Source: Stenotrophomonas maltophilia (GTDB lineage: Bacteria; Pseudomonadota; Gammaproteobacteria; Xanthomonadales; Xanthomonadaceae). From it: DNA of 64,000 nt. The DNA lies in NCBI RefSeq assembly GCF_039555535.1, contig NZ_CP154630.1, positions 3,299,001-3,363,000 of the forward strand. The letters run 5' to 3'. This document shows positions 19,495 through 38,635 of this stretch, piece after piece. How positions within the stretch are numbered: the first letter of the stretch is position 1; each line of letters begins with the position of its first letter. The notes beneath the pieces are model-generated. The model had not been told where the DNA came from, made no database searches, and saw nothing but the letters and a program-made list of their open reading frames with translations. The translations under genes and the position numbers were made by a program.

Positions 19495-19579
<85 letters not shown>

Positions 19580-19787: not shown

Positions 19788-19872
<85 letters not shown>

Positions 19873-21723: not shown

Positions 21724-21808
<85 letters not shown>

Positions 21809-35728: not shown

Positions 35729-37420
35729 TTACGCCAGGGCTTGTTCGTGCACGCCGGCGATCGCGCGTCCGGAAGGGTCGGCCGCCGCCGCGAAGCTGGC
35801 ATCCCAGGCGATCGCCGCCGGCGAGGAACAGGCAATCGATTTGCCGCCCGGCACGGTCTCGGCCGCCGCGCGGCTCGGGAAGAACTGCTCGAACAGGTGG
35901 CGGTAGTAGTACGCCTCCTTGGTCTGCGGCGGGTTGTGCGGGAAGCGCTTGTCGGCGGCCGCCAGCACACGATCGCTCACCTGCGCTTCGGCATGCGCCT
36001 TCAGCCCATCGATCCAGCCGTAGCCGACGCCATCGCTGAACTGCTCCTTCTGCCGCCACAGGATGCTGTCCGGCAGGTAGCCATCGAACGCCTCGCGCAG
36101 CACCGCCTTCTCGATGCGACGGCCACCGAACCCGGCACCGACCATCTTGTGCGCGGCATCGAAGCGCATCGCCACGTCGAGGAATTCACGATCCAGGAAC
36201 GGCACGCGCGGCTCCACGCCCCAGGCCATCATCGATTTGTTGGCACGCAGGCAATCGTAGTTGTGCAGGGCGTCGAGCTTGCGCACCAGCTCGTCGTGGA
36301 ATTCGCGCGCATCCGGCGCCTTGTGGAAGTACAGGTAACCACCGAAGATCTCGTCGCTGCCTTCGCCGGACAGCACCATCTTCACGCCCATCGCCTTGAT
36401 CCGCCGCGCCAGCAGGAACATCGGCGTCGACGCGCGGATGGTGGTGACGTCGTAGGTTTCGATGTGGCGGATCACTTCCGGCAGCACGTCCAGGCCTTCT
36501 TCGAAGGTGTATTCGAACCCGTGGTGCACAGTACCCAGCGCTTCGGCAGCAACCGCGGCAGCGGCCAGATCGGGGGATCCCTTCAGCCCGATCGCGAACG
36601 AGTGCAGGCGCGGCCACCAGGCTTCGGTCTGCCCGCCGTCCTCGATGCGACGGCGCGCGTAGCGTGCGGCCACGGCGGCCACCAGCGATGAATCCAGACC
36701 ACCGGACAGCAGTACGCCATACGGCACGTCGCTCATCAGCTGGCGCTCCACGGCGTGCTCGAAGGCCTGCCGCAGTTCGGCGAGGTCGGCCTGGCGGCCC
36801 TGCACATCCGCATACTCACGCCACGGCTGCTGGTAGTAGCGCACCAGTTCACCACTGGCGCTGTCGAAATAGTGGCCCGGCGGGAACTGCGCGACATCGG
36901 CGCAGGAATCGACCAGCGCCTTCATCTCCGAAGCCACGCGCAGGCGCCCCTGCGCATCGTGGCCCCAGTACAGCGGCACCACGCCGACCGGGTCGCGCGC
37001 CACCAGCACGCGGCCGCTGTCACGGTCCCACAGCGCAAAGGCGAAGATGCCGTTGAGCTGCTCCAGCCACTGCGCCGGCGATCCGCCCTGGCGGTACAGC
37101 GCGTTGATCACTTCGCAGTCCGAGCCGGTCTGGAAGTCGTAGGCGGTGGTCAGCGCGGCCTTCAGTTGCTGGTGGTTGTAGATTTCGCCGTTCACCGCCA
37201 GCGCCAGCTGGCCGTCGGCAGACAGCAGCGGTTGCGAGCCGCCGGCCGGATCGACGATGGCCAGCCGCTCGTGGACCAGCAATGCGCCTTCGTCCAGGTA
37301 CACGCCGCTCCAGTCCGGGCCACGGTGGCGCTGGCGCTGCGACAGTTCCAGCGCGTGCCGGCGCAGGGCGGGAAGATCGTCACCGGCCTGCAGGCCGAAG
37401 ATTCCGAAGATCGAACACAT
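35729..37420 (-). CDS. asnB: Asparagine synthase (glutamine-hydrolysing)
   Basis: AsnB makes asparagine from aspartate, glutamine and ATP in the cytoplasm. The 563-residue protein starts MCSIFGIFG, so Cys2 is the N-terminal nucleophile of the glutaminase domain. NGEIYNHQQL and GSDCEVINALY belong to the same domain. The synthetase domain has the PP-loop LLSGGLDSSLVAAVAARYA near residue 230 and VLSGEGSDEIFGGYLYF. The ATG at 37420 is fixed by Cys2. Upstream are an Asn-rich leader peptide and a strong terminator with an alternative partner strand, so expression is probably set by charged tRNA-Asn through attenuation. Confidence 0.96.
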   Translation of the reverse strand: MCSIFGIFGLQAGDDLPALRRHALELSQRQRHRGPDWSGVYLDEGALLVHERLAIVDPAGGSQPLLSADGQLALAVNGEIYNHQQLKAALTTAYDFQTGSDCEVINALYRQGGSPAQWLEQLNGIFAFALWDRDSGRVLVARDPVGVVPLYWGHDAQGRLRVASEMKALVDSCADVAQFPPGHYFDSASGELVRYYQQPWREYADVQGRQADLAELRQAFEHAVERQLMSDVPYGVLLSGGLDSSLVAAVAARYARRRIEDGGQTEAWWPRLHSFAIGLKGSPDLAAAAVAAEALGTVHHGFEYTFEEGLDVLPEVIRHIETYDVTTIRASTPMFLLARRIKAMGVKMVLSGEGSDEIFGGYLYFHKAPDAREFHDELVRKLDALHNYDCLRANKSMMAWGVEPRVPFLDREFLDVAMRFDAAHKMVGAGFGGRRIEKAVLREAFDGYLPDSILWRQKEQFSDGVGYGWIDGLKAHAEAQVSDRVLAAADKRFPHNPPQTKEAYYYRHLFEQFFPSRAAAETVPGGKSIACSSPAAIAWDASFAAAADPSGRAIAGVHEQALA

Positions 37421-37501
37421 GGCGGAGCTCCTGTTGGGGGATTTCACGAGGGGAAGGTGTTCGACCGGCCATCCAGGCCCGGGAAGGCTGCGCCCGGGCA
37501 C

Positions 37502-37532
37502 AAAAAAACCCGCATCGGCCGATGCGGGTTTT
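37502..37532 (-). terminator. Attenuator terminator of the asnB leader
   Basis: On the minus strand AAAACCCGCATCGG is followed directly by its complement and seven T bases, 82 bases before asnB. The 5' arm can instead pair with an identical-to-3'-arm copy, CGGCCGATGCGGG, inside the leader peptide gene at 37590-37578 (13 bases). Pairing was read by eye; no folding was run. Confidence 0.85.
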
Positions 37533-37557
37533 CTGGTGTCCGGGCGTGTGTTGCTGT

Positions 37558-37659
37558 CTATCTACCCAGGGCGCAGTCCCGCATCGGCCGCGCACGATTA
37601 TTCGCGCGCAGATTATTGCGGTTGTTGTTATTGACGGCGGTGGCCAGGCGGATCGACAT
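37558..37659 (-). CDS. Candidate asparagine leader peptide for asnB attenuation
   Basis: This 33-residue reading frame begins MSIRLATAV and then runs NNNNRNNLRANN, so eight of twelve residues in this stretch are asparagine; it ends at TAG 25 bases before the terminator stem. The AAT pair at codons 20-21 forms the loop of a possible 9-bp hairpin (CTGCGCGCG at 37611-37603 with CGTGCGCGG at 37596-37588). Codons 24-27 (37590-37578) match the terminator's 3' arm, so a ribosome stalled for Asn-tRNA could expose the antiterminator. No strong ribosome binding site is visible (GGTCGATCCC precedes the ATG), and the open frame continues upstream, so the start is uncertain. Arrangement is that of his, trp and leu leaders. 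Confidence 0.72.
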   Translation of the reverse strand: MSIRLATAVNNNNRNNLRANNRARPMRDCALGR

Positions 37660-37750
37660 GGGATCGACCGTACCCCGGTTTCCGGCGCGGCGCAACAGTT
37701 GCGTTGGCAACCACGCGTGAAGCGCATAATGGCGCGCCCAGCAATGTGTA

Positions 37751-38635
37751 ATGGAAATGCAACACCGCACTGGATGCACTGCCGTACTGGCCGCCCTGCT
37801 CTGCCTGGGCCTGGCGGCCTGCCATACCCTGTCCCCGCCCTCCAGGCTGCCGCCCGCGCAGCAGCAGGCCCTGGAACAGCGCGGCAGCGACGGCAGCTTT
37901 GACGGCGCCTGGGATACCGCAGAGACCTTCGAGCGCTTCAACGACCCGCGCGCGATCGCCTACTACGAGCGTGCCGCTGCGGCCACGCCCTGGACCTTCC
38001 ACAACACCAAGGCGGAAGAAGCACTGGGCCGGATCTGGACCTTCGGCACGCTGCGGCATGCCGACAGCCCCCGCATCGATCCTGCACCGGTGCTGCGCGC
38101 TTCGTGGCGACGCGGCGAGCGCGCCTACCTGGCTGCGGCCAACCACGGCAATCCCTACGCGTTCCACGACTTGGCTGCAGCCTATCGCCAGCAGGGCGAC
38201 GCACAGCAGGCCCTGCGCTGGGACCTGCGCGCGATGATCCATCACCGCTATCCAAGCCGTTCCTCGCGACTGCCGGATGCAGTGGCCGCGAAGGCCGGCA
38301 CCGTGCACCCGCTGGTCGCCCACCTGCAGCGTCGCGCGGCGCGTGGCGATGCCGAGGCGCAGGTGGATCTGGGCGCGCTGCTGGAACGCGGCGTGGGCGT
38401 GCCGAGCGATCCGGCACATGCGTTGCAGCTGTATCAGCGTGCCGGGGAACAGGGCAATGTGTTCGGCCAGTACTTTGCCGGGCTGCTGCTGGGCCGGAGT
38501 GCGCCGGGCGTGGAGAAGGACACCGAGGCGGCGGCACGCTGGTTCGCGAAGGCCGAAGCGCAGCACTTCTACATGGCGGCGCCCAGCTACTGGAAAAAAG
38601 CGGTCGAGCCGCCGTTCTTCCTTTTTTCGGAATAG
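37751..38635 (+). CDS. Sel1-repeat (TPR-like) lipoprotein
   Basis: The 294-residue protein carries a lipoprotein signal with lipobox GLAACHTL (Cys near residue 24). Three helical hairpin repeats of the Sel1/TPR type follow: ASWRRGERAYLAAANHGNPYAFHDLAA, AARGDAEAQVDLGALLERGVGVPSDPAHA and RAGEQGNVFGQYFAGLLLGRS-A. Sel1 repeats bind proteins; no target is evident. It is divergent from the asnB leader and stands alone. The ATG at 37751 or six bases later (37757) may be used. Function unknown. Confidence 0.82.
   Translation: MEMQHRTGCTAVLAALLCLGLAACHTLSPPSRLPPAQQQALEQRGSDGSFDGAWDTAETFERFNDPRAIAYYERAAAATPWTFHNTKAEEALGRIWTFGTLRHADSPRIDPAPVLRASWRRGERAYLAAANHGNPYAFHDLAAAYRQQGDAQQALRWDLRAMIHHRYPSRSSRLPDAVAAKAGTVHPLVAHLQRRAARGDAEAQVDLGALLERGVGVPSDPAHALQLYQRAGEQGNVFGQYFAGLLLGRSAPGVEKDTEAAARWFAKAEAQHFYMAAPSYWKKAVEPPFFLFSE

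Follow-up and report, generated by a model that had tools for sequence, protein, structure and literature searches.

A candidate asparagine-sensing leader-peptide attenuator in front of asnB in Stenotrophomonas and its relatives

What does a short reading frame full of asparagine codons, followed by a terminator, do in front of a gene for asparagine synthesis? The question was raised by the asnB locus of Stenotrophomonas maltophilia, in the window (the whole stretch of DNA that was analysed, 64,000 nt). A first-pass annotation had proposed that a ribosome stalled in this frame by low Asn-tRNA allows read-through into asnB. On sequence conservation and a ribosome-masking fold model, this reading of the leader as an Asn-sensing attenuator was supported and is very likely right. 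We give a classical ribosome-mediated transcription attenuator, with asparagine as its control amino acid, a probability of about 0.92.

The gene for asparagine synthase B, asnB (35729–37420; NF006949 865.4 bits, cut-off 499), lies on the minus strand, as do all features of the leader described below. It is preceded by an SD-like ribosome-binding site, AGGAG (37428–37432). The leader frame (37558–37659; ATG 37659–37657, stop 37560–37558) has 33 codons, encodes the peptide MSIRLATAVNNNNRNNLRANNRARPMRDCALGR and is conserved in 65 related loci. Its control region (codons 10–21, 37597–37632) was recognized from the sequence and from an Asn-density count. Our recount agreed with the eight Asn first reported for it, at codons 10–13, 15, 16, 20 and 21. 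The leader itself reached up to eight Asn per 14 codons; outside it, in the six frames of the 64-kb window, none of 105,552 stretches of 14 codons had at least six Asn, and two had five. The AsnRS gene and two AsnB paralogues of the genome had no Asn-dense frame within 1,500 nt (maximum 3 Asn per 14 codons).

The intrinsic terminator, AGAAAACCCGCATC-GGCC-GATGCGGGTTTTTT-T, was found at 37534–37502 (hairpin −20.3 kcal/mol) and was absent from the list produced by a simple consensus scan. Its 5′ arm is strand 3 (37521–37534); strand 4 (37502–37516) consists of the 3′ arm and the final T of the tract. The distance of 82 nt to the asnB ATG at 37420 was as first annotated, while the interval from the leader stop, given as 25 bases, measured 23 nt to the 14-base arm. 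The hairpin is not the terminator of an upstream gene, as the next gene (37751–38635) is on the opposite strand and the minus-strand dapE is farther off. Strand 2, the antiterminator half (GGCCGATGCGGG, 37578–37589), can form 12 pairs with 37528–37517 of strand 3. It belongs to a 13-base copy of the terminator 3′ arm at 37590–37578, which proved exact, and whose last 12 bases (37589–37578) pair fully with 37528–37517. A 9-bp hairpin with an AATAAT loop had been described as overlapping this copy. A hairpin does exist there, on the strand 1 side (37588–37611), but the fold gave 10 pairs and a four-base loop, with only three bases shared.

AsnRS was found above cut-off in the host genome and in 58 of 61 genomes of the order sample, and GatB had no match in the host genome. 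With AsnRS present and GatB not found, tRNA-Asn charging should depend on free asparagine. Elsewhere in the window, three tRNA-Leu(CAG) genes lie on the plus strand (19495–19579, 19788–19872 and 21724–21808), and their Rfam scores are equal.

Conservation of the leader in relatives

The first sample comprised the best 80 AsnB-relative loci of a longer list. Among these, 65 had a frame ending 18–36 nt before a GC-rich hairpin, and together with the window they formed the 66 rows analysed. Left out were L039, L044, L072–L074, L077–L083 and L085, which had no leader, as well as L045 and L084, with 60 nt and no sequence upstream, respectively. The frames had 3 to 9 Asn codons each (66 rows, window included). 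The hairpin was present in all 66 rows, and a strict scan requiring a T tract found the terminator in 60 of the 65 loci. The five that failed (L021, L050, L058, L062 and L063) had the hairpin, but the T tract after it was poor.

A tree was built with 78 proteins; the 65 leader loci, from the best 80 listed, fell into one clade of 68 rows, with a support of 100/100. The three clade members without the layout were L039, L044 and L072, from records labelled Holophagales, Rhodococcus and Deltaproteobacteria. Being nested in a Lysobacterales clade, they point to either gene transfer or mixed assemblies. The named clade loci were labelled Lysobacteraceae and Rhodanobacteraceae, and the layout recurred in Stenotrophomonas, Xanthomonas, Lysobacter, Rhodanobacter and their relatives.

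A second draw covered 121 genomes of the order, host included, with AsnB in 71. In families f1, f178 and f168, all 33 genes fetched at 74% identity or more had an Asn-rich frame ahead of them, with 3 or more Asn per 14 codons. The hairpin was found by script in 30 of these orthologues and by eye in the other 3. From the labels above, f1 and f178 would be Lysobacteraceae and Rhodanobacteraceae. The second draw overlaps the named loci, so that the two samples jointly gave 99 leaders, 97 of them distinct. Two AsnB genes that belong to f1 and f178 but are more distant (L128, L126) had no Asn-rich leader, and in f170, f171, f173, f175 and f176 no leader was found by script in 34 of 35 genes. The exception, L102 (G308:C49:28254-28914), had a four-Asn frame, a terminator 21 nt past the stop and a TTGACA box farther upstream. 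The other 17 fetched asnB genes of its family were without a leader by script, and the L102 leader would be either an independent attenuator or a retained older one.

Codons were counted in the 66 leaders from two codons ahead of the first Asn codon through the stop. We found 404 AAY versus 1 AAR in frame, and 0 and 1 AAY in the remaining two frames, and A-rich RNA alone is therefore an insufficient explanation. At least five Asn per 14 codons were reached in 55 of the 66 real upstream regions, and a maximum of four in 1,320 shuffles of them. Outside the Asn codons, the peptides were highly divergent between groups.

Alternative pairings and ribosome position

By their complementarity, the putative antiterminator (strands 2:3) and the terminator (3:4) are mutually exclusive, and strands 2 and 3 co-vary. 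The mean energy of strands 2 and 3 with their own partners was −20.80 kcal/mol, versus −17.44 for 5,000 re-pairings (minimum −18.99), in a test made without choosing the place of strand 2 by fit and with statistics that ignore kinship. In a column test, 70.7% of the 2:3 cells were paired versus at most 67.6% in 2,000 shuffles, a figure that ignores kinship as well and is favoured because strand 2 had been positioned so as to match the strand 3 of the same leader. This test used eleven columns and 55 distinct rows; L006, nearly identical to the window, was retained among the 66. Five leaders (L025, L029, L030, L031 and L042) had A for G in strand 2 and T for C in strand 3, by which the 2:3 pair stays A-U and the terminator is left with G-U. 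L013 showed 2:3 covariation at a position that is unpaired in the terminator. In 21 of the 66 leaders, strand 2 did not outperform shuffled strands of identical composition at p 0.05.

The alignment in relatives proposed with the first-pass annotation thus bore it out, with Asn codons and both alternative pairings conserved and strands 2 and 3 changing together. As far as sequence comparison goes, conservation and covariation extend to the frame with its Asn codons, to the terminator and the 2:3 pairing, and to the distances between these elements.

The proposed part of the AATAAT hairpin in the mechanism did not hold in the same way. Some local pairing of strand 2 was seen in 51 of 66 rows, a count made without a control, and in the window it involved just 4 of the 12 bases. 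The long form is limited to the Stenotrophomonas/Xanthomonas/Pseudoxanthomonas/Luteimonas side of the clade, and we rejected it as the common core of this switch. The attenuator reading stands without it, with strand 2 as the core, lying at the frame end where a translating ribosome can mask it.

In the proposed mechanism, transcription would begin at or beside the leader ATG, with the ribosome trailing the polymerase. When charged tRNA-Asn is ample, the ribosome would clear the Asn codons and cover strand 2, the terminator would form, and asnB would remain untranscribed. When charged tRNA-Asn is scarce, the ribosome would stall on the Asn codons and leave strand 2 free to capture strand 3 ahead of the synthesis of strand 4, with read-through into asnB. 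We infer the stalling, the termination and the cellular response to asparagine; the switching between terminator and antiterminator is predicted by the following model.

Bases under the ribosome were masked and the RNA was folded, either ending before strand 4 or complete. With the RNA ending before strand 4, the antiterminator formed in 57 of 66 leaders when the ribosome was on the second Asn codon, versus 8 of 66 when it was on the stop. Five other masks gave 55–57 and 3–10 of 66, respectively. By a broader measure, pairing was 0.80 on the Asn codons versus 0.43 beyond them, and the difference had the expected sign in 63 of 66 leaders. In the window, 2:3 pairing was 0.99 at codon 21, where the Asn codons end, and dropped to 0.13 at codon 22. 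It was back to 0.76 at codon 33 and to 1.00 at the stop; strand 2 is free again in the model because the window stop is farther out than in Xanthomonas. Masking near this stop would have to come from a moving ribosome or from the local hairpin. For E. coli thrL, a proven attenuator, the same model gave a value of 1.00 that fell to 0.16 at the last Thr codon. The fold check with a masked leader, also suggested at first pass, gave the predicted picture, strand 2 being free in the model on the Asn codons and covered just beyond.

Equilibrium folds of the complete RNA favoured the terminator in 52 of 66 stalled cases, and for thrL at every position, so that the choice must be kinetic and made during transcription, as for thrL. 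The window values varied with the amount of T tract and upstream RNA included. The preference for the terminator in most rows would suit an attenuator of another kind, read by a protein or a metabolite, whose Asn codons mainly couple translation instead of sensing Asn. We consider this very unlikely: no Rfam riboswitch or T-box was found at cut-off, the control codons stand for the amino acid that asnB makes, AAY outnumbers AAR by 404 to 1, and strand 2 is placed where a ribosome past the Asn codons would cover it.

Choice of Asn codon and the leader start

A predicted conserved promoter abutting the start codon and an enrichment of the rarer codon AAU, both from sequence comparison, are new beyond the first-pass annotation. 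In the window, the −35-like box TTGCGC (37690–37695) is followed after 17 nt by the −10-like box TACGGT (37667–37672), which lies 7 nt before the ATG. The two boxes match the consensus weakly (6/12), and a simple consensus scan of 37300–38100 gave no sigma-70-like promoter. Among the 97 distinct leaders, 77 had TTGC at −36 or −35 relative to the start codon, a count favoured by the choice of the start codon by promoter score, and a second TTGC cluster was found at −52 to −50 (27 leaders). A −10-like hexamer ending 6 or 7 nt before the start codon was found in 79 of the 97, which is the weaker of the two counts because the search always gave some hexamer. An SD-like motif was present before the last in-frame leader ATG in 16 of 66 rows, versus 61 of 66 before asnB. 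The RNA is predicted to start at or beside the leader ATG, as a leaderless mRNA. A transcription start downstream of 37558 had been named as evidence against the attenuator; the only conserved promoter-like spacing found in the sequence comparison is upstream, directly before the leader ATG.

The share of AAU among Asn codons was 48% in the leaders (191/396) versus 14% in their own asnB genes (73/530), at 65 loci (within L006–L076). The other two-fold NNY codons were used alike, with 19/81 in the leaders and 1764/7045 in the asnB genes. The leaders thus favour the rarer Asn codon, which is a better fit to a stalling site than to a functional peptide.

With its conserved promoter-like spacing and its terminator, the leader also looks like a complete small gene, and the frame might encode a free-standing small protein, while asnB would have another promoter, located past the terminator. 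The peptides, however, differ greatly among groups outside the Asn codons, a rare codon is favoured for Asn only, and strand 2 co-varies with strand 3. Further, in 36 of 66 rows the terminator stem and asnB are at most 55 nt apart, a tight space for a separate asnB promoter. A separate small gene is therefore extremely unlikely. That an A-rich stretch before asnB reads as Asn by accident has a negligible probability, being refuted by the AAY and AAR counts in the three frames and opposed by the shuffles and by the presence of the layout in 65 of 68 clade genes from the best 80 listed.

Within the attenuator reading, the use of AAU might itself be selected, in a leaderless attenuator that reads asparagine together with the state of tRNA-Asn and whose stalling depends on queuosine at the wobble base. 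We regard this extension as unlikely. If true, the making of asparagine would be linked to the supply of queuosine in a large part of a bacterial order.

Comparison with known systems

In Gram-positive bacteria, T-box leaders of Asn genes sense tRNA-Asn charging and control termination, and they bind the tRNA directly, without translation. The asnB leader would share with them the signal and the control of termination, and differ in reading the signal through translation. No T-box riboswitch was among its Rfam matches, and no Rfam family matched at cut-off, the scores being 22.2/55 bits for Thr_leader (terminator only) and 19.3/50 bits for Leu_leader.

The asnB leader resembles E. coli thrL (Rfam RF00506, Thr_leader) in having control codons, a strand 2 at the frame end that copies the terminator 3′ arm, and a matching drop when the ribosome position is modelled by masking. 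The two differ in that thrL has Thr and Ile codons before thrA, and the asnB leader Asn codons. The thrL terminator core GCCCGCAC/GTGCGGGC occurs also in several Lysobacter asnB leaders, and in some of them, e.g., L075, core and strand 2 are nearly letter-identical to those of thrL (L159). This likeness is probably convergence.

Searches of open-access PMC text gave no paper recognisable as dealing with an Asn leader peptide; two older surveys, Vitreschak 2004 and Lopatovskaya 2010, were outside this scope, and an earlier prediction is possible. PMC1262725 has no word beginning with “asn”, and PMC2965389 has a single one.

Two leader-peptide systems are close in type. The leaderless trp attenuator RNA of Sinorhizobium meliloti, rnTrpL/peTrpL, begins with the leader ATG (PMC7298713), and the asnB leader RNA is predicted to start likewise, at or beside its ATG. 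The trp attenuator has Trp instead of Asn codons, and a trans-acting role of RNA or peptide is not known for the asnB leader. The cysS uORF motif uORFC-8-2 of Rhodobacterales was recently proposed as a Cys leader-peptide attenuator (PMC8632094). Like the asnB leader it would respond to its own amino acid; in contrast, it has Cys codons before a tRNA synthetase gene, in another bacterial class (PMC8632094).

The asnB leader is a candidate new Rfam family, whose ~97 distinct natural variants show the joint evolution of control codons, antiterminator and terminator. It would predict how asparagine synthesis is controlled in Stenotrophomonas, Xanthomonas and relatives. We file it as a putative member of a known switch type, the ribosome-mediated attenuator, with a new amino acid: asparagine would join those read through leader-peptide attenuation.
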